Source: a virus. Taken from it: a DNA stretch of 64,000 bases. The stretch spans positions 1 through 64,000 of IMG/VR virus record IMGVR_UViG_3300030060_004544; one strand, 5' to 3'. This document shows, piece after piece, positions 4,010 to 48,171 of this stretch (positions within the stretch are counted from its first letter, which is position 1; the number at the start of each line of letters is the position of its first letter). The notes below the pieces were generated by a model. It saw only the letters and a list, made by a program, of their open reading frames with translations, had not been told where the DNA came from and ran no database searches. A program made the translations under genes and the position numbers.

Positions 4010-4024
4010 AGTTATTAAATTTAG

Positions 4025-4096
4025 TTGCGGGAGGTGGAGTCGAACCACCGACCTTGAGGTTATGAGCCTCACGAGCTACCACTGCTCTACCCCGCC
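4025..4096 (-). tRNA. tRNA-Met (anticodon CAT)
   Basis: Complete cloverleaf on the minus strand: acceptor GGCGGGG with TCCCGCA, TA at 8-9, D-stem GAGC/GCTC with AGTGGTA loop, anticodon arm TGAGG-CTCATAA-CCTCA, and T-arm GGTGG-TTCGACT-CCACC, 72 nt including base 73. CCA is not encoded. Pair 1-72 is a G/A mismatch, reminiscent of the unpaired 1-72 of bacterial initiator tRNAs, but the anticodon stem lacks the three G-C pairs of tRNA-fMet. The first 10 bases overlap the 3' end of the neighbouring coding gene. Confidence 0.92.
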
Positions 4097-6248: not shown

Positions 6249-7814
6249 ATGGAATATAATCAACCTAGTTTGATCGTAAAAGATCTTACATTTAGCAATG
6301 ATGCTAAGTGGAGAATTATTGAAGGTGTAGAAAAACTGAACAACGCAGTTAAGTCTACACTTGGAGCTTCAGGAAAATGTGTCATCTATGAAGATGCATT
6401 AGGTAAACCGGTGATAACAAAAGACGGTGTAACAGTAGCTGAATCTGTTGTCTTATTTGACCCGGTTGAAAATATAGGTGCAACACTTATAAAAGAAGCG
6501 GCGAATAACACTGTGAAAGAAGCAGGTGACGGTACCACTACGGCTACTGTCCTTGCTCATTCGCTTTTAAAAATAGCAAGTGCTAGAGAATCTGATAACG
6601 TTAGAGAAATAAAGCAAGGTATTAAAACAGCTACAGACAAAGTAATGACATACTTAGATAAGGTAAGCATCGATGTAAATGATGACTTGCTTGAAAATGT
6701 AGCTACAATATCTACTAATAATGACGAAGAGCTTGGCAAGTTTATATCATCAGCATATAAACAAGTAGGTAAAGATGGTGTAGTGTTAATGGAAGAGTCA
6801 CCAACAGGAGAAACATATGTTGATGTTGTTGATGGTATACAAATAAAATCTCCGTTAAAATCACCACATCTTGTTACAGATAAAGATAGAGGTGTTGCAG
6901 AGCTAGATAATCCTCTAGTATTAATCACATCGTCACCAATACCTAATATACGTAAAATACAACCTATATTAGAACACTGTATAAAGAAAAACAGATCTTT
7001 ACTTATAGTTGGTGAACTAGAGCAACAGCCTAAAGCAGCATTATTAACAAACAAGGTTAAAGGTAATATAAAGGTTAACTTTATTGACTTACCTGGCTTT
7101 GGTCCTACTAAACAGGATAGCACTGAAGATTTAGCCATAGTAACAGGTGCTAAAGTTATTAATGAAGAGCTTGGTGATGACTTTGATCTTATTGATGTAG
7201 ATTGTCTTGGTGAAGCAGTGAAAACTGTTACAGATGACAAACATACGGTGTTTACTGTAAATAAATCAGGTAAAACCCTTAAAGATCGTATAAAACAAGT
7301 AAAAGATATAATAGGTAAGGAAACTAAAAATCCTTACTTAAAAAAGAAACAACAAGAAAGATTAGCAATACTTAATGGATCAGTGGGGATTGTGTTTGTA
7401 GGAGCTGATAGTAAGGTAGAACTAAAAGAAAAGAAAGACAGGATAGAAGATGCAATATATGCTACAAAAGCAGCTTTACAAGAAGGCATCGTTCCTGGAG
7501 GTGGTATAGCGTTACTTAATGCTAGTAACAATATAACGCCTAAAAATGTTGGAGAAGAATTATTATTACAGGCAATACAAACACCTTTCAATACAATACT
7601 AGATAACGCAGGTATTGAAAAACCTACTAAACTAGTCAAAGGTCAAGGTATAAACGTAGTAACCGGTAAAAAGGTTAATATGATTAAGTCTGGAATTATC
7701 GATCCGGTTTTGGTTACAAAATCGGCGCTGAAAAACGCTGTATCAGTAGTTAGTACTATTATATCAGCTGATTGTGTAATATCTAATATGAGGATAAATG
7801 AAAGCAATAAATAG
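6249..7814 (+). CDS. groEL: Phage chaperonin GroEL (Hsp60)
   Basis: A 521-residue type I chaperonin subunit that forms a folding chamber with GroES, presumably for phage capsid or tail proteins. Visible signatures are GDGTTTA (residues 93-99, ATP binding), ITKDGVTVA (57-65) and the late equatorial [12 protein letters not shown]. The usual Gly-Gly-Met C-terminal tail is missing, and the protein is somewhat shorter than bacterial GroEL (about 540-550). It overlaps groES by 17 bases in the order groEL-groES, the reverse of the bacterial operon. Confidence 0.95.
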
Positions 7815-13158: not shown

Positions 13159-13560
13159 ATGGCAATACAGTTTTTGCAAGACACACTTATAAACGGTCAT
13201 TTTAGTTTCCAGGAATCTGCATTTACAAGTGTAGTAGCTAGTGGTAATACACATACTGTAGACTTAACCGCAGACACTAATAACTATAAGGTAATTGCAA
13301 ATAATGCAACAAACACCTTGGCTTTTAGTAATTTAAGCGATAAAGTTATTGGTAAAACAGGCTCTATAGCTATCCAAAATCCAGCTAGTGTAGGATCTTT
13401 AGGTTGGGCAGCTTTACCCGCTACAGCTTATACTCCAGGTGGTGTAGCTATATCATTTGACACAAGTTCAAACGGCATAGCTGTTATTTCTTACCTTGTA
13501 ATGTCAGCAAATAAAGTATTAATAAACTATGTAGGAGACTTTGGTAGTTATCCTCAGTAA
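13159..13560 (+). CDS. Hypothetical beta-rich protein, 133 aa
   Basis: Beta-rich, with regularly spaced Thr, Asn and Gly and no signal peptide (NTHTVDLTADTNNYKVIANNATNTLAF). Such compact proteins are often fibre tips or fibre-associated proteins; its position between the fibre gene and the repeat proteins supports this. Not recognised. Confidence 0.6.
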   Translation: MAIQFLQDTLINGHFSFQESAFTSVVASGNTHTVDLTADTNNYKVIANNATNTLAFSNLSDKVIGKTGSIAIQNPASVGSLGWAALPATAYTPGGVAISFDTSSNGIAVISYLVMSANKVLINYVGDFGSYPQ

Positions 13561-13571
13561 AATCTAATTTA

Positions 13572-16466
13572 ATGAAGTGGTTATGGAATAAAATAGATTT
13601 CTGGAATACCGCGACTAGCAGAAGCACAACAGTTAGTACTTCTAAATCGACGGCTACAAGCAAATCCACAACTACTACTTTTAACACAAGTAAGAGTACT
13701 ACAACGGTATATAATACAAGTACTAATACTACAACTACTTTCAATACTAGTAAAAGTACAAGTACTGTTTTTAATACTAGTACTACAACTACTTTTGAAA
13801 CTTCTAGGGAAACTACTGTATCAACCAGTAGATCAACTAGCACAGAGTTTAATACTAGCACATCTACAACTACAACCTTTGAAACTAGTAAGTCAACCAC
13901 GACTACTTTCAATACTAGCACAACTACAACATTTGAAACATCTAGGCAGACAACAGTCTCTACTAGCAGATCAACTACAACTACATTTAACACAAGTAAG
14001 TCTACAACCACTACTTTTGAAACTAGCAAGAGTACTACTACAACCTTTAATACAAGTACAACAACAACTTTTAATACTAGCAGGGAAACTACAATATCAA
14101 CAAGTAGAACTACTCAAACTGCATATAACACTAGTAAAAGTACAACTACTATTTACGAAACTAGCAAAAGTACTACTACTACATTTAACACTAGTACTAC
14201 TACCACTTTTGAAACTAGTAGGGATACTACTGTGTCAACTAGTAGAAGTACAACAACAACTTTCAATACTACAAAAAGTACTACCACTACTTTTAATACA
14301 ACAAAAAGTACTAGTACAGTATTCAATACAAGTACTACAACGACTTTTAATACAAGTAGAGAAACTACTATAAGTACATCAAGATCAACTCAGACTACGT
14401 TTGCTACTAGCAAGTCTACATCTACTGTTTTCAATACTAGCACAACCACTACGTTTAATACAAGTAGAGAAACAACTATAAGTACGTCTAGAAACACTAC
14501 TACAACGTTCAACACTAGTAAATCTACATCTACAGTATTTAATACTAGCACGACTACTACTTTTGAAACAAGCAAACAAACAACTGTTTCAACTAGTAGA
14601 AGTACTACTACCACATTTAATACTAGCAAGAACACAACTACTACTTACAACACGACAAAGTCTACTAGTACGGTTTTTAACACAAGTACCACTACCACTT
14701 TCAACACTAGTAGAGAGACTACTATATCTACATCTAGATCTACAACGACTACGTTTAATACTAGTAAAAACACTACAACGACTTTCAATACAACAAAGTC
14801 AACTAGCACTGTGTTTAATACTAGTACTGTTACAACGTTTAACACAACTAGAGAAACTACAGTATCAACTAGTAGAAACACTACAACAACCTTTAATACA
14901 AGTAAAAATACGACAACTACGTTTAATACTACTAAGTCTACAAACACTGTATTTAACACGTCTACTACAACAACATACAATACCACTAGAGAAACAACTA
15001 TTTCAACTAGTAGAAACACAACAACAGTATACAATACTACTAAGTCTACGACCACAACGTTTAATACTACTAAAACAACTAATACTGTATTTAACACAAC
15101 AACTTTAACTACGTTTAGTACAACTACAACATATAATACAAGTAAATCAACTGCAACTAGCAGAAACACTACTGTATCTACTACTAGAACTACTGAAACC
15201 GCGTACAATACTACTAGAACTACACAAACTACTTTTAATACTTCAACAAGTACATCAACAAGTAGAGAAACTACTATAAGCACTAGTAGAAGCACCAACA
15301 CTGTTTTTAACACAACTACACTGACAACATTTGGCACGCAAACAACTTTTAGCACTTCTAAGTCAACTCTTACTGTTTTTAATACTACTACTTTAACCAC
15401 GTTTAATACAACAACGACTTTCAATACCACTAGGTCTACGAACACTGTATTTAACACCACTACTTTAACTACGTTTAACACGGTAACAACTTTTAATACT
15501 ACTAGAGATACTACTACGATATTTAGCACAACAACGTTAACCACGTTTGATACCACAACAACATTTTCTACTAGTACACTAACAGAAACAATTTACAACA
15601 CTAGTACTACTACTACCACTACAACAACGTTTAACACCAGTAGAAACACATCGGAAAGTAGAACTACAAGTACTACAACAACATTTTCTACAACGACAGT
15701 TTTTAACACAACTAGAACTACTAACGTTAATTATGTTGTATGGGATGTGCAACAAGGAGATAGTAGTACTCTTGGTGCAGGTTATATATACAAACAAAAC
15801 ATATCACCTACTGGTGGAAGTAACATTGCTGCAAGTGAGGTTAGATTTAATAACCAACTTCCTGAAAATGCTAGTAAAGTATATATACATGAAGAAGATG
15901 ATACAGGTTATAACCTTTATAACGCGTTTTCAAATGTAATGAATTTTGTTAACGCTGGTGGTGGAAATTATGCTAGATTTCTTATAGCTGCTGACGTACT
16001 TCAAAAAGCTATTTCTTTTAAAGTTACCGGTGGATCATATAATTCTACTTTAGATTATTTTGAATTTGATCTAGCTGAAAACATATTTGTTGACACAGTT
16101 AAGTGTCCAGGTTATAACACATTTGTCTTAGAAGCAGGTGATACAAAATTAGAAGTATGGATGTGGAGAAGTGATGGTGCTGGTGGATACAGTACAACTA
16201 CTACAACTACGTTTAGCACAAGTACGTTAACAACATTTAACACTGTAACAGTATATAACACTAGTAAAAGTACACAAACAACGTTTAGTACATCTAAATC
16301 TACATCAACAAATAGAAATACTTCAGAAAGTAGAAGTACAACTACAACTTTTAATACTCTAAGATCAACCATAACACAATACAATGCGTTTACTTTATAC
16401 AATACATTTAGATCAACATTTACATCAGGCGGCGGTGGAGGCGGCTGTAGTAGAGGTTGTATATAA
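13572..16466 (+). CDS. Giant Thr/Asn/Ser repeat protein 1, 964 aa
   Basis: Residues ~15-715 and ~871-945 consist almost wholly of short repeats of the type STTTTFNTSK, STTTVFNTS and TFNTSRETTISTSR, with Phe or Tyr about every 8-10 residues. Nearly every unit carries an N-T-S or N-T-T sequon. Between them lies a non-repetitive domain (about 718-870, starting NVNYVVWDVQ) that looks like a folded beta domain. The C-terminus is Gly-rich and ends CSRGCI. No signal peptide. It lies among fibre genes, so a long fibrous appendage or tail-surface protein is likely. I do not recognise a characterised family. Confidence 0.8.
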   Translation: MKWLWNKIDFWNTATSRSTTVSTSKSTATSKSTTTTFNTSKSTTTVYNTSTNTTTTFNTSKSTSTVFNTSTTTTFETSRETTVSTSRSTSTEFNTSTSTTTTFETSKSTTTTFNTSTTTTFETSRQTTVSTSRSTTTTFNTSKSTTTTFETSKSTTTTFNTSTTTTFNTSRETTISTSRTTQTAYNTSKSTTTIYETSKSTTTTFNTSTTTTFETSRDTTVSTSRSTTTTFNTTKSTTTTFNTTKSTSTVFNTSTTTTFNTSRETTISTSRSTQTTFATSKSTSTVFNTSTTTTFNTSRETTISTSRNTTTTFNTSKSTSTVFNTSTTTTFETSKQTTVSTSRSTTTTFNTSKNTTTTYNTTKSTSTVFNTSTTTTFNTSRETTISTSRSTTTTFNTSKNTTTTFNTTKSTSTVFNTSTVTTFNTTRETTVSTSRNTTTTFNTSKNTTTTFNTTKSTNTVFNTSTTTTYNTTRETTISTSRNTTTVYNTTKSTTTTFNTTKTTNTVFNTTTLTTFSTTTTYNTSKSTATSRNTTVSTTRTTETAYNTTRTTQTTFNTSTSTSTSRETTISTSRSTNTVFNTTTLTTFGTQTTFSTSKSTLTVFNTTTLTTFNTTTTFNTTRSTNTVFNTTTLTTFNTVTTFNTTRDTTTIFSTTTLTTFDTTTTFSTSTLTETIYNTSTTTTTTTTFNTSRNTSESRTTSTTTTFSTTTVFNTTRTTNVNYVVWDVQQGDSSTLGAGYIYKQNISPTGGSNIAASEVRFNNQLPENASKVYIHEEDDTGYNLYNAFSNVMNFVNAGGGNYARFLIAADVLQKAISFKVTGGSYNSTLDYFEFDLAENIFVDTVKCPGYNTFVLEAGDTKLEVWMWRSDGAGGYSTTTTTTFSTSTLTTFNTVTVYNTSKSTQTTFSTSKSTSTNRNTSESRSTTTTFNTLRSTITQYNAFTLYNTFRSTFTSGGGGGGCSRGCI
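13614..15720 (+). repeat. Coding repeat array (Thr-rich units), first block
   Basis: DNA encoding 8-10-residue units. The units are the same at protein level but use all four Thr codons and both Asn and Phe codons in changing order, so few long exact DNA repeats exist. Confidence 0.8.
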
Positions 16467-16477
16467 AATTAAATAAT

Positions 16478-17509
16478 ATGAATATACCTTATAGAACATC
16501 GGATACGCAACAAAATTATCATGCAGCTGATTTAACTTTTCGTGAAAATGGAGACATAGTCTGGACTAACCCTGTTACTAATGAGATATGGGAAGTTATG
16601 ATGGAGTGGGAAATACCAATCATGCAAAAAGCGGCAGAGGTGTGTGTTGACGCTGGTGCAGATGTTTTAGAGTGTGGTTTTGGCATGGGTATATTGTCAG
16701 ACGCTATACAAGCTAGAAACCCAGGTACTCACACAATATGTGAAACGCATCCTCAAATAATACCTAAATTAAAAGCTTGGGCTGCAGATAAACCTAATGT
16801 AATTATCGTTGAAGACAAATGGTTGAGTTTGTTAAACGAGCGTAAAGGTTATGATGCAATACTAATGGACACATATGCAGACCCTGATTTACACCCTCAT
16901 TTTAGATATTTTGTAAAACAAAAAGCAAAAGACGGAGCTAAAATAACATGGTGGAATTATAGTGGTGGAACAACAGATGAGTATATGAAGTTTCACTGGG
17001 ACGATGTAGTATTTCATAATGTAGCTATATCTCCACCTGAAAATCAGTATTATAATAGAAACGTGTATCCTGTTCCTGTTAAAGTTTACAATAGAGAAAC
17101 AGGTTTTGGTGTATTATCAAGCTCTAGTTTTAATATAAGCGAAACAGAAAGCAAAGATCTACATGAAGTTAAATCATTTTTAACTTGTGATGTTTCAAAT
17201 GGAACAAAAAGCGTTAAAAGTGTTGAAGGTGTTGAGAGATTAGCGATGTATTGCGAAGGTTTGTACACTTTAAATGAAAATTTAGTTATAGCTGGTTCAC
17301 ATCCTATATACGTAAAAAGAAATAATCAATGGACTACAGTTAAAGTAAATGAACTTGTAATTGGTGATAAACTATATGGTAAAAATGGAGAGGTTGAGCT
17401 AACAAGTAAAACTTTTGATTCGTCTGAAACAACAAGACAAATATATAAAGTAGTGCTTAATAACTATTTTGTTAACGATATATTAGTGAAAGGAGGGTCT
17501 GATGCCTAA
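16478..17509 (+). CDS. GAMT/RMT2-like methyltransferase fused to a Hint-like domain, 343 aa
   Basis: Residues ~20-165 form a class I SAM-dependent methyltransferase: motif I VLECGFGMGIL (63-73), an acidic strand end ICETH (87-91) and AILMDTYAD (127-135). VLE.GFGMG followed by IQ..NP..H.I.E.H is the pattern of guanidinoacetate/arginine N-methyltransferases of the GAMT/RMT2 group. The C-terminal third (about 225-340) resembles a Hint/hedgehog-type module: AGSHPIYV, VNELVIGDKLYG and YKVVLNNYFVNDILVKG. The usual N-terminal Cys nucleophile is not obvious. I chose the ATG at 16478 behind an AAAATTAAATAAT leader. It overlaps the second repeat protein (ATGCCTAA), so it is probably co-expressed with both repeat proteins. 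Confidence 0.7.
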   Translation: MNIPYRTSDTQQNYHAADLTFRENGDIVWTNPVTNEIWEVMMEWEIPIMQKAAEVCVDAGADVLECGFGMGILSDAIQARNPGTHTICETHPQIIPKLKAWAADKPNVIIVEDKWLSLLNERKGYDAILMDTYADPDLHPHFRYFVKQKAKDGAKITWWNYSGGTTDEYMKFHWDDVVFHNVAISPPENQYYNRNVYPVPVKVYNRETGFGVLSSSSFNISETESKDLHEVKSFLTCDVSNGTKSVKSVEGVERLAMYCEGLYTLNENLVIAGSHPIYVKRNNQWTTVKVNELVIGDKLYGKNGEVELTSKTFDSSETTRQIYKVVLNNYFVNDILVKGGSDA

Positions 17510-19946
17510 TACTACTACTGTTTTCGGAACATCGAGGTTAACAACAATATCTGATTTTACTAATACTACTGTTTCTACCAGTAGAAATACTACAACTACT
17601 TACACTACTAGTACTGTATACAATACGACAACTACTTTTAATACTACTACTAGTACAACCACTACGTATAATACTACTAAATCCACATCAACATCAAGAA
17701 ATACTAGTTGGGCTACTAGTAGAAGTACTAGCACGGTTGTAGGTGCAGATATGGATGATGATGTAATGACTTTTTACAACACTAGTACAAATACTTTAAC
17801 GTCTAAAAGTACAAACACCACAACAACATACACTACAAGCACTACGTATCCTACAAGTAGATCAACAACAACAACTACAAACTACAACACAAGTACTATT
17901 ACGACAGAATCTAGTAACACTACAAGAGCTACATCAACTAGCAGAAATACTAGTTATGAAACTAGTAAAACTACAACTACTACTTACAACACTACAAAAT
18001 CTACATCAACAAGTAGAAACACCACTATTAGTACAAACAACAATACAACTACTACTTATAACACTACAAGAACTACATCAACAAGTAGAAATACAACCGT
18101 ATCTACTAATAGAAATACAACTACTACTTTCAACACAAGTACTATTACACAGACAAGTAGAAACACTTCATACAGCACAAATAGAGATACAACAACGACA
18201 TTTAATACTAGTACAACAACTACATTTAATACTACAACAACTTACAATACTAGTAGAAATACAACTACAACCTTTTCAACAAGTACTAACACCGTAACTA
18301 CGTTTAACACGCAGACGTTGACAACTTTTAACACTACAACTACTTTTAATACTAGTACTAATACGCAAACTAGTAGGAACACAACTGTGTCTACAAATAA
18401 AAATACTACTACAACTTTTAACACAACAAAATCTACTACAACAACGTTTAATACGTCTAAATCAACAACAACGACGTTTAATACATCTACTACAACGACT
18501 TTTAACACGTCTAGAACAACAACTATTAGTACGAATAAAAATACCACTACAACGTTTAACACAACGAGAAGTACTCAAACAACTTTTGCTACAAGTAAAA
18601 GTACTAGTACTGTGTTCAATACGTCTACAGTAACAACATTCAATACAAGTAGAACAACAACTGTTAGTACAAGTAGAAATACAACAACAACCTTTAATAC
18701 TACTAGGTCAACTCAAACTACATTTGCTACTAGTAAAAGTACCACAACAGTATTTAATACGAGTACAACTACTACTTTTAATACATCTAGATCTACCACG
18801 GTAAGTACAAGTAGAAACACCACGACTACTTTTAATACTACTAGAACTACGCAAACTACTTTTGCTACTAGTAAATCAACTACTACAGTGTTTAACACCA
18901 GTACGACTACCACGTTTAACACATCAAGATCTACAACTATTAGCACAAGTAGAAATACTACAACTGTATACGCTACTAGTAAATCAACAACTACTACGTT
19001 TAATACGTCTACAACGACAACTTTCAACACTAGTAGATCTACTACAGTATCTACAAGTAGAAATACAACTACGACTTTTAATACTAGTAAAAATACAACC
19101 ACAACATTTAACACTAGTACAACAACTACATTTAACACTAGTAGATCAACGACTGTTTCTACCAGTAGAAATACTACGACTACGTTTAATACAACTAAAA
19201 GTACTACTACGACGTTTAATACTTCTAAAAGTACTACAACCGTATTTAACACATCAACTACGACAACATTTAATACTAGTAGGTCTACTACTATAAGCAC
19301 ATCTAGATCTACGACTACAATATTTAATACAAGTAAGTCTACTACTACTACGTTTCAAACAAGTACTAATACCACTACGACTTTTAATACAAGTACGACT
19401 ACCACTTTTGAAACTAGTAGATCAACAACTATAAGTACGTCAAGAAGTACAACGACCACGTTTAATACAACTAAATCTACTACGACCACATTCAATACTA
19501 GTAAGAGTACAACAACGGTGTTTAATACTTCAACAACAACTACTTTTAATACTAGTAGAAGTACTACTGTTAGTACTAGTAGAAGTACAACAACTACTTT
19601 TAACACAACAAAAGCAACAACTACAAACTACAACACAAGTACTGACACGACTACTACTTTTAACACTAGTACGACTACAACTTTTAATACCACTAGAGTT
19701 ACAACAGTTAGTACGTCTAAAAATACTACGACTACATTTAACACGACTAAAACTACACAAACAACTTTTAGTACAAGTAAGAGTACCACCACAACTTTTA
19801 ACACAACAAAGAGTACTACTACAATATTTAACACTACTACAGTGTTTAATACTAGTACAACTACTACGTTTGAAACTAATACTAACTGGTATGATGGTGA
19901 TCCTGGTAATTATGGTCAATTAGGTGATGTATCCTTTGATAGGTAG
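17502..19946 (+). CDS. Giant Thr/Asn/Ser repeat protein 2, 814 aa
   Basis: Same repeat grammar as the 964-aa protein over residues ~1-795 (units such as NTTTTFNTS, STTTVFNTS, STTISTSR), with one short break near residue 80 (VVGADMDDDVMTF). The last ~20 residues are different (NWYDGDPGNYGQLGDVSFDR). No signal peptide or membrane helix. It overlaps the methyltransferase-Hint gene and is followed by the KpsC-like glycosyltransferase. Probably a paralogue of repeat protein 1, forming or decorating an appendage. Confidence 0.8.
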   Translation: MPNTTTVFGTSRLTTISDFTNTTVSTSRNTTTTYTTSTVYNTTTTFNTTTSTTTTYNTTKSTSTSRNTSWATSRSTSTVVGADMDDDVMTFYNTSTNTLTSKSTNTTTTYTTSTTYPTSRSTTTTTNYNTSTITTESSNTTRATSTSRNTSYETSKTTTTTYNTTKSTSTSRNTTISTNNNTTTTYNTTRTTSTSRNTTVSTNRNTTTTFNTSTITQTSRNTSYSTNRDTTTTFNTSTTTTFNTTTTYNTSRNTTTTFSTSTNTVTTFNTQTLTTFNTTTTFNTSTNTQTSRNTTVSTNKNTTTTFNTTKSTTTTFNTSKSTTTTFNTSTTTTFNTSRTTTISTNKNTTTTFNTTRSTQTTFATSKSTSTVFNTSTVTTFNTSRTTTVSTSRNTTTTFNTTRSTQTTFATSKSTTTVFNTSTTTTFNTSRSTTVSTSRNTTTTFNTTRTTQTTFATSKSTTTVFNTSTTTTFNTSRSTTISTSRNTTTVYATSKSTTTTFNTSTTTTFNTSRSTTVSTSRNTTTTFNTSKNTTTTFNTSTTTTFNTSRSTTVSTSRNTTTTFNTTKSTTTTFNTSKSTTTVFNTSTTTTFNTSRSTTISTSRSTTTIFNTSKSTTTTFQTSTNTTTTFNTSTTTTFETSRSTTISTSRSTTTTFNTTKSTTTTFNTSKSTTTVFNTSTTTTFNTSRSTTVSTSRSTTTTFNTTKATTTNYNTSTDTTTTFNTSTTTTFNTTRVTTVSTSKNTTTTFNTTKTTQTTFSTSKSTTTTFNTTKSTTTIFNTTTVFNTSTTTTFETNTNWYDGDPGNYGQLGDVSFDR
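17550..19880 (+). repeat. Coding repeat array (Thr-rich units), second block
   Basis: Continuous array of ACN-rich units encoding TTTFNTS-type repeats, with extensive synonymous variation between units. No unit is conserved exactly over long distance at DNA level. Confidence 0.8.
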
Positions 19947-19999: not shown

Positions 20000-20893
20000 A
20001 TGGAAATGTTTAATAGACGTGAGTTGGACAAAAGAATTGGCCATCTCAAAAAAAATAAAAAACTTGAAAGTTTAGAACAAGTAGAAGGATACTTTATAAG
20101 AAAGTGTACTGAAGCTGGTATTGATTTTAGCTATGATGTTATGGCTGATGAAATGCCTCATTTTAAAACTTTAGCATATACTGAGTTTGCTACTAGTTTT
20201 TACATGCAACCTCTAAACACAAAACTTAGATACGCTCAAATGATTGACGCATACGATGATGATTGTGATGTTGTTGATTACTCATCTTATTTAATTGAAA
20301 ATGTTATGAGTAAAAATGCTAATAAGTATCAAGATAGAGACTCTAAGTTTGATCAATATGAGCCGAAAGATAATATTGTTATATTACCTGGCTCAAATAA
20401 AGTAAAATCCAATATTTGCTTAAACAGATTAAAGTTTTTAGCAAATAAACATGGTAATAACATGTATTTTAAGCCACATCCTATAACAACACATCAAATT
20501 ATAGGTGAGTTAAAAGACTTTTTTGGCGACCAAAATATATTACCAAGGGATATAGATATGTATTATTATTTACAAAAAGCAAATAACGTATACACTACTC
20601 ATATTAGTGAAAGTATGATATACGCGGCTGTTTTAGGTAAAAAAATTGAACCTATTGACGTTTGGAATAACATACAAATGGGATCTTTTTATTGCATTAA
20701 CAACCATTTGCTTGATAATCAACATGATATTAAAAATTATATCAATAAGTGTTTTTCAAGTCCAAAGTCTGGTATTATAAACCCAGCTGTAGACAAAAAT
20801 TGGAAAGAAAAAATAGATAAATACTTACAATACATACTTAAAAAACGAGAAATGTACAAAGACTGGTTTATAGCTGAACCAAAAAAGAAGTAA
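20000..20893 (+). CDS. Capsule-type (KpsC/KpsS-like) glycosyltransferase, 297 aa
   Basis: A GT-B-like C-terminal half: VILPGSNK (~residues 127-134), YFKPHP (~155-160), then LQKANNVYTTHISESMIYAAVLGKKIEPI (~190-220). The KPHP motif followed by a Ser-containing loop and an EA-like helix is the pattern of KpsC/KpsS/capsule-synthesis transferases, several of which transfer Kdo. The N-terminus is helical and not recognised. It follows the repeat proteins by 53 bases, so the repeat proteins are possible substrates. The assignment is by motif only. Confidence 0.55.
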   Translation: MEMFNRRELDKRIGHLKKNKKLESLEQVEGYFIRKCTEAGIDFSYDVMADEMPHFKTLAYTEFATSFYMQPLNTKLRYAQMIDAYDDDCDVVDYSSYLIENVMSKNANKYQDRDSKFDQYEPKDNIVILPGSNKVKSNICLNRLKFLANKHGNNMYFKPHPITTHQIIGELKDFFGDQNILPRDIDMYYYLQKANNVYTTHISESMIYAAVLGKKIEPIDVWNNIQMGSFYCINNHLLDNQHDIKNYINKCFSSPKSGIINPAVDKNWKEKIDKYLQYILKKREMYKDWFIAEPKKK

Positions 20894-36809: not shown

Positions 36810-38159
36810 ATGGGAGCAGTAATAGAATTAGCATTTTCAAACGCCATAATAATACAAGGTGGTAGAAGCGGAACAACAGAAACACCCGGTGTTTATCACA
36901 TTGAGGAAAACAGAATAAAAGGTGAATATAATGGTATTCAAATGGATATTGGTGCTAGAGCTCACATAACAGATGAAGAGTATAAAAGTAGAGTAAGAGA
37001 AAACGCAATGATATATAGTGGTATATTCAATGCTAGAACTACTGTTAATGAGTTAAATCAATTTCCATCAGGTCAAGTAATAACAAGAGCTGTTGATATT
37101 AATAATGGTAGTATACAAAAACTACACGCAGAAGATACTAACTTAAATATATTTCAAGAGAATAAAGTTAATAGAGCTTTAATAGATAAAGACGCTATAT
37201 TTACAGCTGAAGGACAACCTATTACAGCGTCAGGCGCTAATGTTATAGGTCAAATAACACCTTATGCTGGTAAGTATGGTATTGGTACAGATCCTGAAAG
37301 TTTTGCTTACTTTGGTAATAGAAAATATTTTGCAGATAGAAAAAGAGGTGTTATATGTAGACTAGCAGGTGGAGCAGGTGGTGGACAAGGCATAACTCCT
37401 ATATCAGACGCTGGTATGAAAGACTGGTTTAAAGATAACCTAAAAGTGTGTGATACTATATATGGAGCGTTTGATGAGCAAAAGAAACAATACGTTATAA
37501 CATTAGAAGGAACAGATATTGATGGAGGTGTAATAGCTTCTAGCGCAACAGCAACAGCCGATGTAACAACATTTGGTACGCTAGCGTTTGACGAAAGAGC
37601 TAGTGGTTGGGTTAGTTTTTACACATACAAAGCAACACATGGTGTAAGTTTAAAAAATGAGTTTTATACATATAGCTCAGCAAACTTATATAGACAACAT
37701 GATGAAACAGTGGCAAGAGGTAATTTTTATGACGCATCATTTAACGATCCATCGTATGTTAAGCTTCTATTTAACATGGAACCATCGTCAGTCAAAACAT
37801 TTTTAACCCTTGATTACGAGGGAACTACTGGTTGGGGTATGACTAATTTTTCAACAGGTGGTTACGCTGTTTACGGAGCATCAGGTAACTATGATGACGT
37901 TAACACAGCATATGAGATACCTAAAGAAGGTACAACAATAGGAACAGGTGAAACTGTAGGATTTATTAAAAAAGAAAACTTCTACTACAGTGAATTAAGA
38001 AATAAAGCTGTTGATTTTTATCAAGACAACAGCCACTTTCAAACATCTGGTTTAAAAGGATATTTTTCAAACATAACAATGCAGTATTGGGAACCTAGTG
38101 AAAGTTCCAATGATCCAAAAGCTGAATTATTCTCAGTTAATGGTGAAGTTACTGTTTAA
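36810..38159 (+). CDS. Tail-stub protein, muzzle C-terminal-like, 449 aa
   Basis: Contains YGIGTDPESFAYFGNRKYFADRKRGVI (about residues 150-176) and ITPISDAGMKDWFKDNL, patterns I associate with the C-terminal portion of crAss-like stabilization proteins. Here it is a separate gene 9 bases downstream of the 1372-aa protein, with its own A-rich leader. It therefore may represent a split muzzle. Confidence 0.6.
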   Translation: MGAVIELAFSNAIIIQGGRSGTTETPGVYHIEENRIKGEYNGIQMDIGARAHITDEEYKSRVRENAMIYSGIFNARTTVNELNQFPSGQVITRAVDINNGSIQKLHAEDTNLNIFQENKVNRALIDKDAIFTAEGQPITASGANVIGQITPYAGKYGIGTDPESFAYFGNRKYFADRKRGVICRLAGGAGGGQGITPISDAGMKDWFKDNLKVCDTIYGAFDEQKKQYVITLEGTDIDGGVIASSATATADVTTFGTLAFDERASGWVSFYTYKATHGVSLKNEFYTYSSANLYRQHDETVARGNFYDASFNDPSYVKLLFNMEPSSVKTFLTLDYEGTTGWGMTNFSTGGYAVYGASGNYDDVNTAYEIPKEGTTIGTGETVGFIKKENFYYSELRNKAVDFYQDNSHFQTSGLKGYFSNITMQYWEPSESSNDPKAELFSVNGEVTV

Positions 38160-41274: not shown

Positions 41275-44200
41275 ATGTGGGAATTTAACGGTAAGAAGTT
41301 CACAAACGAGCAATTACAGTTAGCCGCAGACAAAGCAAACTTATCATTTGATGAGTTTGTAAGTAAATTGCGAGAAAAAGGTTTAACCGAAGTAAAGGTT
41401 GATAGAATAGGTGTAGATACACAAGAAGAAACTGGTTTCTTTGAAGAAATATTTACTAGTGGTAAAAGGTTTGTATCAGGTGGTGCAGGTGCTTTAGCAA
41501 GAATATCTCAAATACCAGCTCAAATAAACAGAGCTAAGTTTGTTGCTCGTATGGAACGTTTGCCTGATGATAATAAATTAAAAGAATTTTACAATAACCT
41601 AGAACCTGAAAAACAAGATGAGTTTTTACAAAAATACGAAGGTATCATGGCTGGACGTATGCCTGGTAATATTCCAATTGCGAAACTTGGCGAAAGTGGT
41701 TTAGAAGCTTCTGAAAAATTAAAAGATTATCAACAAGAAATAAATTCAAAACTACCACAATACAATAGAGCTTTATCAGAAGCTTATATAGCGGCTGCTA
41801 AAGGTGATATATCTGCTGTACCTGAGGTAATTGCAAGAACAATAACTAGTTCTGCAGAAGGTTTACCGTCATTGATACAAGCAATGATTCCCTACATTGG
41901 TATACCTTCAGTAATACTAGGTAGCTCAGCAGAGGCTTCAACAGAGGCTATAGAAGAAGGTAAAAAAGTTGATCTTGATAATTTAGCTTATTCAAGTTTT
42001 GTTGGTGTTGCAGAAGGTGCTTTAGAAACAGTAACTAGAGGTATTGGTAAAAGTATATTTGCAAACTTAAAAGGACAAGGTGCTGCTGTTGTAGAAAGAA
42101 GATTAAGAGATATATTTTTAAGAATAGGTAAAGACTATGGTAAAGAAGGTTTATCTGAAGGTACGTCAGCTGCATTAAGTAAAGCAGCTAAAGCTGTTTA
42201 TATAGGTGACGCTGAAGGTTTTGATGAAATATTTAATTCAGTATTTGATGATTATGAAGTGCTAGATAACATACTTATTGGTGGTGCTTTAGGTGGTAAA
42301 ACAAGAGGTGGTGCTGAGTTGTTTATAGCTAAAAACAATAGAAGCATTAATAAAACATTAGACAATACAAATGTAAATGATGTTAACTCTGCTTTTCAAA
42401 ATGACAATGTAAATCAAGATGTAATAGATATAACTAGAAATAAAAATGCTAGTGCTAGATTAGATGCTGAGCTACAACAAAAATTAGATAACGGAGAAAT
42501 AACAGTAGAACAAAGAGATAAGGTAAAAAAGAATTTTAGTGATACACAATCAGCTGTAACACTAGCTGATAACCTAAACATCGGTAAAGACTTAATACAA
42601 GAAACTGTAACGTTATTAAAAGAAAGAAATACTTTAGCTAGTAAAATAGAATTAGCTGGTGCTAATAAAGCTATAGTCGATGCTGAAATAAATAGATTAA
42701 AAGAAGTTGATGCTAGACTAGCAAAAATAAGTTCTGATAATCAATTAAATCTTACAACAGAAAAAGTTACTGACATAGTTAGTGGACTTGATAAAATAAA
42801 TATAGAAATAGCAGAAAATCAAGATGCTGCCGATAAAATTGCTAAAGACAAAAACCTAGAAAAGAAAGCATCGTCACAACAAGGATTTATACTTCAAGAC
42901 CTTGAATCAGGTGAACAAACAATCGTTATAAATAAAGAGATCGCTGCAGAAGATGCAGCAGTAAATGTAGCTGCCCATGAGTTATTACACGGTGTTTTAT
43001 TTAATACTATTGGTAAAAACCCAGAAGCAGCTGAAGTTTTATCAGAAGCACTTAAAGTTGAAATAAATAAAATAGATACTGATATATTAAAAGACAGTGA
43101 TTTTAAAACTAGATTAGATGCTTATAAAAACGATCCAACAGCGATACAAGCCGAAGAAACTTTAACATTGTTTGCTGATGCTGTAGCTAACGGTGAGATA
43201 AAATATAACGAAACTGTATTTACTAAAATAGGTGATATAGTTAGAAGAATACTACAACAAGCGGGTTTATCTGACATAAAGTTTAACACTTCAAGAGATG
43301 TATTTAATTTTATAAAAGATTATAATAAAAGTATTGTAAAAGGTCAGTTAACACAGGCACAAACAAAACTTACACAAGAAGCTGCTACAGGTGATTTAAT
43401 ATCTGACACACAAACAGATCAAGAAACTCAAATAAGAGAGTCAAAAGGCGCGTTAGATGTTATCAATAATATAATACCTAGTAATATAAAAACTAAAGAG
43501 CAGTTTCAAAACGACCCTAAAGTATTTGGTGATGCTTTTGCTGCTACAGAGCCAAACGGTGTTATAAGTAACTATGTTAAGTCTAGATCAACTAGTGTTG
43601 AGCAAGCAAATGCTACTATAAGAAATATACAAAGTAGATTAATGAACTTTGATCCAGCGTTTAACAAAACGTTTGGTGAGTTTGTTTTTGCTAATACTAA
43701 TTTTGCTAAGCTAGATGCTAATAAAGAACTAGCTATAGAGTCAGCTAGAAAAGCTAGAGAAACTAGAATAGATCAGTCTACTAAACAAATAGCTGATACA
43801 GAAACAGAAACGCCAACAACACAAACAAGAGTATCACGTAAACTTAATGTATTAAAGCTAGATAAAGTAAATGAAGCTGATCTAGTTAAAGCTGTAAAAG
43901 TAAAAGAAGGTGATACATTTAAAGAAGTTATAAATAATAATACTGGTGAAATAGGTAGTAAAATATTTAACATACCAGCTAACAAAATAACAGACGGCAC
44001 AAAGAACTTAACATACGCTAAGAAAATAACAGATGGTATACCTGAAAACTCTGAAGCTGGTAACATACAAGAGTTTTTTAGAGTTGGTCAGAATGCTGAT
44101 AAATTTATAAAACTATTACCTGAAGAAAATGTTAGTGAAACAGATGCTGATATTAACCAGTTAGGTGAAAACATAGATGTTGATAGAAATGTAAGTGGTT

Positions 44201-47200
44201 TATCTATAGGTATGAAAGGTAAAGTACTTAATTATTTTTATAATAAAACAAACAGAAGATCAAAAGGTTTAACATCACAACCAACTATATGGGAACTAAA
44301 ACCTGAGTTTAGAAACCCAACTGTAGAAACAATAAACAAATTAAAAGATGATTTAGGTATTACACCACCAGGCGAACTAAATAACTACAATAGAGATATT
44401 GGTCAGTTATTAAAAGGTGTAGCTAAAACATACGCGCAACAAGCTAGTTTATCATCAGCACAAAGAGTTTTAGAAGGTCAAACTAAAACAGCTAAAGATC
44501 CTGTAGCAGTTAAAAAGCAAACAGCTAATATAACAGCTGCACAAAAAACTAGAGTTGTATACAGTAAAAGAAATGGTAAACATGACAACTATATTACAAA
44601 ATCTTGGAAAGATATTTCAACAGATAATAAACAAGATTGGTATGTAGTTAAGAAAGATCCGGAACGATATGCTAACGACATAGTTAAAATAGCTAAGATA
44701 TTTGAGAAAAAATTTGGATATGGTTTTTTAAGTAAAGCCATGTTAACAAATAAAGATGGTTTAGGTATAGGTGCAAGAAAGAAAAAAGATGCTGATGGAA
44801 ATATTACTAACGAGGCGATTATAAAAGAAAATCAAAAAATATTTGATCAAATAAGCGCTATAATTACAAGAGAATTACCAAACATAAGTAAGCAGTCTGA
44901 AGGCAAAAAACACGTTAAACAAAAGATAACAGCACAGTTTGCAAAAGATGCTACTAAAAAAGAAATGGAAGCAGCAAATAAACAAAATATGAGGCTGTTT
45001 AAAGATATGTGGTCAACTATATATGATATGGTTCAAAGCGATAAATCATTAACACCTGCATTATTACATTTTCTTAAAAACGCTGTTAGCGAAGGTAGTC
45101 ATATACAAAGGCTTGGCGCTGAGTATATTGGTGGTTACGTTGATAAATCTCAAATATCACATTTAGAACACGCATTACAAAATGCTAACACAGCTAAAAT
45201 GTTAATGGATGCCGCATTAAATCAATCAAAAAAAGACTTTAATAAAACATTTGAAGCTACCGTTAAAAATTATAAGATTATAGGATTACCAAAGGCGCTT
45301 AATAACATATTAGATAAAACAGATTTTAAAAATAAAATGTCACTTGATCAAAGCTGGGATGTTTTTAATAATAACTGGTGGGAAAGATATTTTAATGAAG
45401 TAGTAGCTGCTGTAGATGGCGGTATAAATCCTGATTTAATTATAAAAAACGATGGCACAAGATTATCAGACGAAATTAATGTTGACACGTATGGTAGATC
45501 AACAACACCTAACGTTTCAAAAGCTAAATTAAAAGCTAAAGTTGATTATCCTAAAGTTTTAAAATTCAGTAAATCAACACCTAATAAAGATAAAATAAGA
45601 AACGATTTAAATGATTTTGATCAAGCAAACCGTAACGCTAAAGATATTAACGCACCTAAAAAAGGTATAAGTATTTTTGATTTTGATGATACATTAGCCA
45701 CAAGTAAAAGTAAAGTGCTCGTAACTATAGATGGTAAAACTACAAAAATAACACCAGCAGAATTTGCTAAACAACATAGTAAACTAGAAGAACAGGGTGC
45801 TACGTTTGATTTTAGTGAATTTAATAAGGTTGTTGGTGGTAAACCCGGACCATTAGCCGCTAAGCTTAAAAAAGCAATAGATAAGTTTGGTAATAAAGAC
45901 GTGTTTGTTTTAACAGCTAGACCACAAGCGTCAGCTAAAGCTATATATGAGTTTTTAAAAGGTATAGGTTTAGAAGTGCCTATAAAAAATATTACAGGTT
46001 TAGAAAACGGTACGCCTAAAGCTAAAGCTAAGTGGGTTGTTAGTAAAGCAGCAAAAGGTTACAATGATTTTTATTTTACTGATGATGTATACAAAAACGT
46101 TAAAGCCGTTCAAGATGCTTTAGAAATATACGATGTTAAGTCTAAAACAAGAGTTGCATATGCTAATAGGCTTACTAAGCTTGATAGAGATTTTAACGAC
46201 ATACTTGAAGCTAAAACAGGTATAGGAGCAGAAAAAGTGTATAGCAAAGCAAAAGCAAAAGCAGTTGGATCAAGCAAAGGTAGATTTACATTTTTTATAC
46301 CGCCATCAGCTGAAGATTTTGTAGGATTACTTTACAATACATTAGCTAAAGGTAAACTTGGTGATAATCAAATGGCTTGGTATAAAAAGAATTTATTAGA
46401 TCCGTATGCTACAGCTATGGGTAATATATCAAGAGAGCGTACATCCTTGATGAACGATTACAAAGCTTTGAAAAATCAACTAGAAGTAGTACCTAAAAAC
46501 TTACAAAAGAAAATACCAGGTGAACCTTACACAAACGAACAAGCTGTAAGAGTTTATATATGGAATAAGCAAGGTATGACAATACCTGGATTAAGTAAAG
46601 CTGATTTAAAACTATTAACAGATCATGTTGAAAGTAAACCTATTTACAAAGCTTTTGGTGATCAGTTAATAGCTATAAATAAAGACGATGGTTATTCTGC
46701 TCCAAAAAGCAGTTGGTTAGCAGGTACTGTCACTACTGATTTAATGGATAACTTAGGTACTACAAAAAGAGCTAAACATTTAGCAGAGTGGCAAAGAAAT
46801 GTAAACACTATATTTTCTGAAAAGAATTTAAATAAAATGGAAGCCGCGTTTGGCTTAGCGCATAGACAAGCTTTGGAAGGTATACTTGAACGTATGAGAA
46901 CTGGTAGAAACAGAAGTTTTCAAGGTGATTCATTAACTGGTCAAGTAACAGACTGGTTAACTAATAGTATTGGTACTATTATGTTCTTTAACACAAGGTC
47001 TGCATTGCTACAAACAATATCTTCTGTTAACTTTATTAATTTTAAAGACAACAATATATTTGCAGCTGGTAAAGCATTTGCTAATCAAAAACAATATTGG
47101 AAAGACTTTATGTCATTAATGAACTCTGAGTTTTTAGTTGATAGACGTAGAGGTTTACAGATAAATGTTAACGAAGCAGATATTGCCAACATGGCAAGAG

Positions 47201-48171
47201 AAGGTGGTCCAAGAGGTGTTATAAGTAAATTACTAGAATTTGGATTTTTACCTACACAAATAGCTGATAGTTTTGCTATTGCTTCAGGTGGTGCAAGTTT
47301 TTATAGAAACAGAATAAACAGATTAAAGAAACAGGGTCTAGATCAAAAAGCTGCAGAAGTACAAGCTATGAAAGATTTTAGAGAAATAGCTGAAGAGTCG
47401 CAGCAGTCTAGTAGACCTGATAGAATATCTGCTCAACAAGCTGGACCATTAGGTAGAATAATACTAGCATTTGGTAACACACCAATGCAGTATGCTAGAT
47501 TAATAAAGAAAGCTGCTTCAGATCTTAAAAATAGAAGAGGTGATTGGAAAACTAATACTTCTAAAATAATTTATTATGCAGCTGTGCAGAACTTAATATT
47601 CAACGCGTTACAACAAGCTATATTTGCAATTGGTTTTGGTGATGTTGAAGAAGAAGATGAGTTAGAAAAATATCAAAGCATTGCAAATGGTATGGCTGAT
47701 TCATTATTAAGAGGTGTTGGTATTGCTGGTGCATTTGTATCAGTAGGTAAAAACGCTATAATAAGAATAATTAACGAATCAGAAAAACCTAATCCAAAGT
47801 ATGAAAAAATAGGTTATGAACTAACTAGAATATCACCACCTATATCATCTAAATTGTCAAAGGTAAATCAAGCTGCTAGATCTTATCAGTGGAACAAAGA
47901 AGAGATGAAAGAAAAAGGTTTTTCTATTGATAACCCAGCGTTACTAGCAGGTGCAAATGTAATATCAGCAGCAACAAATATACCGCTTGATAGATTAGTT
48001 AAGAAAACAAACAATGTTGTAAATGCTACATCAGATGATCTAGAAACATGGGAAAGACTTGCTTTATTAGGTGGTTGGCAAGACTGGGAAATAGGTTTAA
48101 CTGATGATAAAGATAAAAAGAAAAAGAAAAAGAAAGCATCAACAACAGGAAAAAGAGAAAGAATTTTTTAA
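41275..48171 (+). CDS. Giant polyvalent internal virion protein with zincin and HAD motifs, 2298 aa
   Basis: N-terminal hydrophobic/alpha region (about residues 170-300 with GIPSVILGSSAEASTEA and AEGALETVTRGIGK). A metalloprotease signature HELLH lies at residues 568-572, and a HAD-phosphatase core has DFDDT at 1469-1473 and VFVLTARP some 75 residues later, with a later FYFTDD acidic pair. The C-terminal third is helical and ends in a poly-Lys tail (KKKKKKK, then RERIF). This multi-domain layout fits the phage large polyvalent proteins that are ejected with DNA. The HAD and zincin could act on host targets. No RNA-polymerase motif was found in it. Confidence 0.7.
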   Translation: MWEFNGKKFTNEQLQLAADKANLSFDEFVSKLREKGLTEVKVDRIGVDTQEETGFFEEIFTSGKRFVSGGAGALARISQIPAQINRAKFVARMERLPDDNKLKEFYNNLEPEKQDEFLQKYEGIMAGRMPGNIPIAKLGESGLEASEKLKDYQQEINSKLPQYNRALSEAYIAAAKGDISAVPEVIARTITSSAEGLPSLIQAMIPYIGIPSVILGSSAEASTEAIEEGKKVDLDNLAYSSFVGVAEGALETVTRGIGKSIFANLKGQGAAVVERRLRDIFLRIGKDYGKEGLSEGTSAALSKAAKAVYIGDAEGFDEIFNSVFDDYEVLDNILIGGALGGKTRGGAELFIAKNNRSINKTLDNTNVNDVNSAFQNDNVNQDVIDITRNKNASARLDAELQQKLDNGEITVEQRDKVKKNFSDTQSAVTLADNLNIGKDLIQETVTLLKERNTLASKIELAGANKAIVDAEINRLKEVDARLAKISSDNQLNLTTEKVTDIVSGLDKINIEIAENQDAADKIAKDKNLEKKASSQQGFILQDLESGEQTIVINKEIAAEDAAVNVAAHELLHGVLFNTIGKNPEAAEVLSEALKVEINKIDTDILKDSDFKTRLDAYKNDPTAIQAEETLTLFADAVANGEIKYNETVFTKIGDIVRRILQQAGLSDIKFNTSRDVFNFIKDYNKSIVKGQLTQAQTKLTQEAATGDLISDTQTDQETQIRESKGALDVINNIIPSNIKTKEQFQNDPKVFGDAFAATEPNGVISNYVKSRSTSVEQANATIRNIQSRLMNFDPAFNKTFGEFVFANTNFAKLDANKELAIESARKARETRIDQSTKQIADTETETPTTQTRVSRKLNVLKLDKVNEADLVKAVKVKEGDTFKEVINNNTGEIGSKIFNIPANKITDGTKNLTYAKKITDGIPENSEAGNIQEFFRVGQNADKFIKLLPEENVSETDADINQLGENIDVDRNVSGLSIGMKGKVLNYFYNKTNRRSKGLTSQPTIWELKPEFRNPTVETINKLKDDLGITPPGELNNYNRDIGQLLKGVAKTYAQQASLSSAQRVLEGQTKTAKDPVAVKKQTANITAAQKTRVVYSKRNGKHDNYITKSWKDISTDNKQDWYVVKKDPERYANDIVKIAKIFEKKFGYGFLSKAMLTNKDGLGIGARKKKDADGNITNEAIIKENQKIFDQISAIITRELPNISKQSEGKKHVKQKITAQFAKDATKKEMEAANKQNMRLFKDMWSTIYDMVQSDKSLTPALLHFLKNAVSEGSHIQRLGAEYIGGYVDKSQISHLEHALQNANTAKMLMDAALNQSKKDFNKTFEATVKNYKIIGLPKALNNILDKTDFKNKMSLDQSWDVFNNNWWERYFNEVVAAVDGGINPDLIIKNDGTRLSDEINVDTYGRSTTPNVSKAKLKAKVDYPKVLKFSKSTPNKDKIRNDLNDFDQANRNAKDINAPKKGISIFDFDDTLATSKSKVLVTIDGKTTKITPAEFAKQHSKLEEQGATFDFSEFNKVVGGKPGPLAAKLKKAIDKFGNKDVFVLTARPQASAKAIYEFLKGIGLEVPIKNITGLENGTPKAKAKWVVSKAAKGYNDFYFTDDVYKNVKAVQDALEIYDVKSKTRVAYANRLTKLDRDFNDILEAKTGIGAEKVYSKAKAKAVGSSKGRFTFFIPPSAEDFVGLLYNTLAKGKLGDNQMAWYKKNLLDPYATAMGNISRERTSLMNDYKALKNQLEVVPKNLQKKIPGEPYTNEQAVRVYIWNKQGMTIPGLSKADLKLLTDHVESKPIYKAFGDQLIAINKDDGYSAPKSSWLAGTVTTDLMDNLGTTKRAKHLAEWQRNVNTIFSEKNLNKMEAAFGLAHRQALEGILERMRTGRNRSFQGDSLTGQVTDWLTNSIGTIMFFNTRSALLQTISSVNFINFKDNNIFAAGKAFANQKQYWKDFMSLMNSEFLVDRRRGLQINVNEADIANMAREGGPRGVISKLLEFGFLPTQIADSFAIASGGASFYRNRINRLKKQGLDQKAAEVQAMKDFREIAEESQQSSRPDRISAQQAGPLGRIILAFGNTPMQYARLIKKAASDLKNRRGDWKTNTSKIIYYAAVQNLIFNALQQAIFAIGFGDVEEEDELEKYQSIANGMADSLLRGVGIAGAFVSVGKNAIIRIINESEKPNPKYEKIGYELTRISPPISSKLSKVNQAARSYQWNKEEMKEKGFSIDNPALLAGANVISAATNIPLDRLVKKTNNVVNATSDDLETWERLALLGGWQDWEIGLTDDKDKKKKKKKASTTGKRERIF

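Follow-up and report, generated by a model that had tools for sequence, protein, structure and literature searches.

Here, we describe MTase1-Hint, a 343-aa protein in which a methyltransferase of the guanidinoacetate methyltransferase (GAMT)/RMT2 class is fused to a Hint-like domain. Its gene lies on the plus strand at positions 16478–17509 of a 64,000-nucleotide stretch (the window) of the virus record IMGVR_UViG_3300030060_004544, which is 70,178 bases long in IMG/VR. The gene upstream encodes repeat protein 1 (RP1), which ends in a glycine-rich tail with a single arginine. This Arg tail and MTase1 are strongly coupled genetically, and the coupling has held through several switches between the tail and another RP1 ending, the Peptidase_S74 (S74) domain. 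Because MTase1 travels so strictly with Arg-tail RP1, it most likely methylates that arginine. We give about an even chance to the proposal that MTase1-Hint would be an enzyme dedicated to methylating Arg961 of RP1, in which the dead Hint would serve for docking, and that the Arg tail and MTase1 together would be an alternative to the S74 ending; the methyl transfer, its target residue, and the docking are predictions.

The arginine tail of RP1 occurs together with MTase1

RP1 (13572–16466, plus strand; 964 aa) is an open reading frame (ORF) rich in Thr/Ser/Asn repeats and probably a fibre-like virion protein. Its C-terminal tail, GGGGGG-CSRGCI (residues 953–964; 16428–16463, plus strand; GGGGGGCSRGCI), is a Gly run with one conserved arginine, Arg961 (AGA codon, 16452–16454, plus strand), the candidate methylation site; elsewhere the tail reads GGGGRGGGG. 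No Pfam match was obtained for the window RP1, so PF13884, the S74 family, is absent from its C-terminus. Every RP1 that precedes MTase1 has a tail of the class (G)n-C-x-R-[GN]-C-x or polyG-R-polyG, with no exception. The C-x-R-N-C-x form was found in L166 and L169, and R-G in all other tails. In L014, L016, and L035–L042, the Gly run is longer and holds one R-G, and the flanking Cys residues are lost. In the MTase1 tree, these Cys-less tails fall into two distinct groups within the CxRGC tails. The Cys residues thus changed independently while the Arg stayed, indicating that the Arg, not the Cys, tracks the enzyme. In the protein arginine methyltransferase literature, an R-G embedded in a stretch of Gly is a classic setting for arginine methylation.

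A scan with the CxRGC tail pattern, blind to the methyltransferase, gave 84 matches, 22 of which were Thr-rich ORFs. MTase1 was located within ~50 nt downstream in 21 of these 22; the remaining one is truncated at the end of its locus, and MTase1 is present on the contig from which it comes, L022. A chance match of the tail was rejected: the pattern also meets unrelated short frames, but all the Thr-rich matches were paired with MTase1. Read-through or frameshifting that fuses RP1 to MTase1 was also rejected, since the gap between them (-1 to about 35 nt) differs in length and frame.

The original prediction had suggested methylation of repeat-protein residues. A repeat protein is retained as the putative substrate, and the candidate site is narrowed from the arginines of the repeats to the tail Arg of RP1. 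The repeats of RP1 and RP2, the repeat protein encoded downstream, contain many Arg residues, which are present regardless of the enzyme; they are abundant, for example, in the RP1 of L235, which has no MTase1. The tail is the better candidate target because the repeat Arg is independent of the enzyme, whereas the tail Arg is found only with it.

Sister phages carry an S74 ending and no MTase1

A repeat scan blind to both the tail and the enzyme revealed sister phages in which RP1 ends in an endosialidase-type S74 chaperone domain (PF13884 at the end of L235 RP1, E 1.5e-4). These phages have no MTase1; RP1 is followed by MTase2, a small class I methyltransferase-like ORF, and then by RP2. Variant B (L035–L042) combines a polyG-R tail with an unfused MTase1 and MTase2, and variant C, to which the window belongs, has the Arg tail and the MTase1-Hint fusion. 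MTase2, located between RP1 and RP2 in the S74 and variant B phages, is ~185 aa long (L235:5122-5676, L035:6558-7109; model pLDDT 78). In the Cellulophaga isolate phi38:1, a protein annotated as S74, gp085, is encoded upstream of the terminase, and the sisters of the window phage likewise have their S74 gene upstream of the terminase.

For a blind census, the conserved gene downstream of RP2 was used as the anchor (in the window, the phrog_26179 neighbour at 20000–20893, plus strand, assigned by its PHROGs match). Forty loci reached the RP1 end, and MTase1 was present in 20/20 Arg-tail loci and 0/20 S74 loci. Over all loci, the 31 distinct Arg tails all came with MTase1 and the 13 distinct S74 tails with none (Fisher 2e-11, uncorrected for phylogeny), a value that is descriptive only because the records are mostly partial contigs related to one another. 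When 16 S74 records were searched over their whole length, MTase1 was not found; there were two weak matches, of which at least one fell on MTase2. No arginine was present in the 15 residues preceding the S74 domain in 19/19 Thr-rich S74 RP1s, where the junction is Gly-rich. The anchor tree contained three changes between the Arg-tail and S74 labels, at least two of them on well-supported branches: variant B is nested inside the S74 group, and the S74 phage L398 lies beside Arg-tail phages. Some apparent exceptions were rejected. In L220, which seemed to combine MTase1 with an S74 RP1, the match is a separate second methyltransferase-like ORF, MTase2; L412 and L414, which seemed tail-less, are both S74 with GVMAHEV.

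The SAM motif and guanidino-site residues of MTase1 are invariant

The N-terminal GAMT/RMT2-like methyltransferase of the original prediction was recovered by both sequence and fold. Pfam and PHROGs alone gave no match above the cut-off for the MTase1-Hint protein. By phmmer, residues 40–177 matched guanidinoacetate methyltransferase (E 4e-11). An AlphaFold2 model was built from 25 homologues (mean pLDDT 87, pTM 0.75) and compared by Foldseek/VIA-align, and its residues 6–205 aligned to GAMT 1xcj with a Z score of 20.4 (194 residues, root-mean-square deviation 2.7, 24% identity). On the basis of these matches and the invariant residues, residues 1–205 (16478–17092, plus strand) were assigned as a GAMT/RMT2-class S-adenosylmethionine (SAM) methyltransferase domain.

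The SAM motif VLECGFGMGIL, the MMxWExPIM motif, E45 (codon 16610–16612, plus strand), and D131 (codon 16868–16870, plus strand) were unchanged across the 25 homologues. In the phmmer alignment, E45 and D131 coincide with the guanidino-binding acids of GAMT, E45 and D134 in the rat enzyme. D131 is invariant also in distant tandem copies. Among close relatives, the pairwise ratio of nonsynonymous to synonymous substitution rates (dN/dS) was 0.01–0.11 for the methyltransferase half and 0.08–0.45 for the Hint half, with the former below the latter in nearly all pairs. These ratios are well below 1, indicating that both halves are under purifying selection.

The Hint domain keeps its fold and lacks its catalytic residues

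Structure prediction matched the C-terminal part to the expected Hint-like fold. Residues 208–343 (17099–17506, plus strand) of the model aligned to the bacterial intein-like (BIL) domain BIL2 6y75 (Z 18.0), the C. thermocellum BIL 2lwy (Z 17.5), and 1at0 (Z 15.6), and the likeness to the two BIL domains covers the full fold over 126–132 residues. A profile of this half against inteins and BIL domains was weak by sequence (9hth, E 1.5e-4; 2lwy, 0.42), the relationship being clear by fold. The same fusion was recovered in a Hint-only search, together with multi-Hint virion-like proteins in other phages.

Unlike these BIL/Hint domains, the domain of MTase1-Hint is not self-processing by sequence. 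The Cys1 nucleophile was absent in 20/20 aligned homologues, its position in the window being filled at about Gly211 (17108–17110). The terminal His-Asn was also absent in 20/20, and the window protein ends in LVKGGSDA. Block B appears degenerate: its His is present in 12/20 homologues and the complete TxxH in fewer, and the window reads AGSH. Cleavage or attachment by the Hint module, as originally proposed, is therefore unlikely, since Cys1 and the terminal Asn are missing throughout, though purifying selection holds. The lack of catalytic residues under purifying selection indicates that the domain is kept for something other than splicing. We guess that this pseudo-Hint is probably a docking or scaffold domain; it is only a guess because variant B has no Hint.

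Gene boundaries, neighbouring genes, and phage affiliation

According to the ORF call and the homologue alignment, MTase1-Hint runs from the ATG at 16478 to the stop at 17509. Its predicted overlap with the gene of RP2 was found to be 8 nt long (17502–17509, plus strand; ATGCCTAA), joining its stop to the RP2 start, and translational coupling of the two genes through it is possible. RP2 (17502–19946, plus strand; 814 aa) is Thr-rich and occurs with or without MTase1. In the fused relatives, RP1 lies upstream and RP2 downstream, both Thr-rich repeat genes, wherever the flanks are present in the sequence. The fusion was seen in ~30 viral contigs at 43–99% identity. Because it recurs there and each half has a dN/dS far below 1, the ORF is genuine, which removes the concern that the fusion might be an annotation artefact. 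When cellular genomes were searched, many bacteria proved to have GAMT-like relatives, none of them with a Hint-like domain in the methyltransferase frame; L307 had one weak Hint match, on the opposite strand. An out-of-frame ORF in L027/L163 was rejected as an artefact. Long Val/Leu-rich ORFs run antisense to the Thr-rich repeats (13484–19919, minus strand); they were rejected as genes, being an artefact of repeat codon composition.

The terminase is 63% identical to that of Podoviridae sp. ctfjg026 and 46% to those of Flavobacterium phages of the genus Elemovirus, and Cellulophaga phages were among the matches. By these relationships, the phage is a podovirus of Bacteroidota. It encodes a GroEL (6249–7814; PF00118, E 3e-49), and the protein at 36810–38159 contains a crAssvirus muzzle C-terminal domain (PF25729, E 4e-6), which suggests tail kinship with crAss-like phages. 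A 2298-aa protein (41275–48171) includes a weak polynucleotide-kinase-like segment (phrog_415, E 3e-5), and there is a single tRNA-Met gene (4024–4096, minus strand).

Proposed mechanism and alternative explanations

GAMT-class enzymes act on guanidino nitrogens. In the proposed mechanism, the guanidino group would be held between E45 and D131 of MTase1, with SAM as the methyl donor. The target would be Arg961, the single arginine of the Gly-rich tail in which the upstream RP1 ends, and the pseudo-Hint may dock the enzyme on the fibre. The Arg tail with MTase1 would be an alternative to the self-cleaving S74 chaperone domain at the same RP1 end, and this exchange suggests that the pair helps to mature or finish the end of the fibre, or that it affects the surface chemistry there. 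We hold the fullest form of the proposal tentatively, at somewhat below an even chance: a GAMT/RMT2-class methyltransferase with a dead Hint for docking would methylate one Arg in the Gly-rich fibre tip, and the pair would be exchanged as a unit against S74, so that methylation would be another way to mature the fibre or to shape its tip chemistry.

Several observations weigh against this mechanism. E45 is replaced by Asp in some distant copies, and variant B manages without the pseudo-Hint. The distant MTase1 relatives in L176 (a 635-kb phage), L282 (a Flavobacteriales contig from a metagenome-assembled genome), and L043–L049 (other marine phages) lie near fibre-like, collagen-like, or multi-Hint genes and have no R-G tail; therefore, the pairing does not extend to all members of the enzyme family. 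The outlier L033 has MTase1 without an adjacent RP1, and the same record encodes elsewhere a collagen-like protein ending in GGGPGPRGQ. We count this tail as a single, suggestive case in favour of the pairing; it was found after the fact, and the control of the pattern also gave one match.

MTase1-Hint might instead work mainly as a chaperone or cap for fibre assembly, binding the RP1 tail and taking the place of S74 in trans, with methylation secondary or lost. It is encoded directly downstream of the fibre gene, the usual place of fibre chaperones, and is exchanged against a chaperone domain; moreover, fibre chaperones resembling intramolecular chaperones have been described (PMC10579305). 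However, an invariant SAM motif, invariant guanidino-site residues, and a lower dN/dS in the methyltransferase half would be needless for a mere scaffold, and variant B retains the methyltransferase domain alone, so we consider this explanation unlikely. Slightly more weight, though still well short of likely, is given to an enzyme that acts on another guanidino substrate (a repeat Arg, a different protein of the virion or the host, or a small molecule), with the tail co-occurring for another reason. The closest solved relatives methylate guanidinoacetate, and Arg is plentiful in the repeats of RP1 and RP2; yet the repeat Arg abounds also in phages without MTase1, whereas the tail Arg comes and goes with the enzyme, and R-G is the only element that the tails share, the two with R-N excepted.

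That the Hint is active in trans, cleaving, ligating, or conjugating with a split-intein-like Cys supplied by the RP1-terminal CxRGC, is very improbable. The motif resembles Hint domain starts such as CFTGDT in L043, and the Cys pair is present in most fused genomes. Nevertheless, no homologue has the terminal His-Asn, the Cys1 position is filled inside the fused domain, and only 12/20 homologues retain the His of block B; L014 and L016 retain the fused Hint without tail Cys, and the Cys leaves the Arg unexplained.

Other phage loci with GAMT-like methyltransferases were also observed. L348 encodes a collagen-like phage protein (994–1530) ending in GGCSGCGGGPGPRGQ, and its record also encodes an unfused MTase1. 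In marine phages (L043:4319-11546; also L049, L172, and L174), GAMT-like methyltransferases, arranged as a tandem pair in L043/L049, stand beside a virion-like protein that contains several Hint domains in tandem, which appear to be active. Acetyltransferase-like and 2-oxoglutarate-oxygenase-like ORFs are present in the same loci, with a sulfotransferase-like ORF in L043/L049; several of these calls were made by eye. The locus is possibly a protein-modification island.

Relation to known systems and significance

Both folds are individually already known. MTase1 resembles GAMT (PDB 1xcj, 3orh) in the fold over the domain, in the VMxxWExPxM motif, and in E45 and the DTY-motif Asp at matching places, but it is viral, Hint-fused, and located beside a fibre-like gene, a genomic context that makes a small-molecule substrate unlikely. 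The fungal enzyme RMT2, of the same GAMT-like class, is a protein arginine delta-N-methyltransferase that acts on a ribosomal protein. MTase1 is likened to it by class rather than by alignment, in that a protein-arginine guanidino nitrogen would be the target, and differs from it in the ribosomal substrate; no solved RMT2 structure turned up in the structure searches. A putative guanidinoacetate methyltransferase of an uncultured marine phage, A0A8D9CBY1, is similar to the methyltransferase domain (TM 0.87, 32% identity) but has 195 aa and no Hint domain. S74 occupies the same RP1 end in the sister phages and is present in phi38:1 gp085, whereas the window RP1 has the Gly-Arg tail in its place.

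We found no earlier report, in the open-access literature, of the fusion, of the dead Hint, of an enzyme/Arg-tail pair exchanged against S74, or of the proposed kind of modification in a virus tail. A 2026 paper presented phage protein methylation as new, in Cellulophaga phages including phi38:1, and its authors knew of no methyltransferase there (PMC13288928). MTase1 offers a phage-encoded enzyme together with one defined, testable candidate residue. If the proposed mechanism is true, MTase1-Hint would be a methyltransferase devoted to a known virion substrate, its dead Hint domain would have found a new use, and the pair would be a module that swaps with the S74 chaperone at the fibre end.
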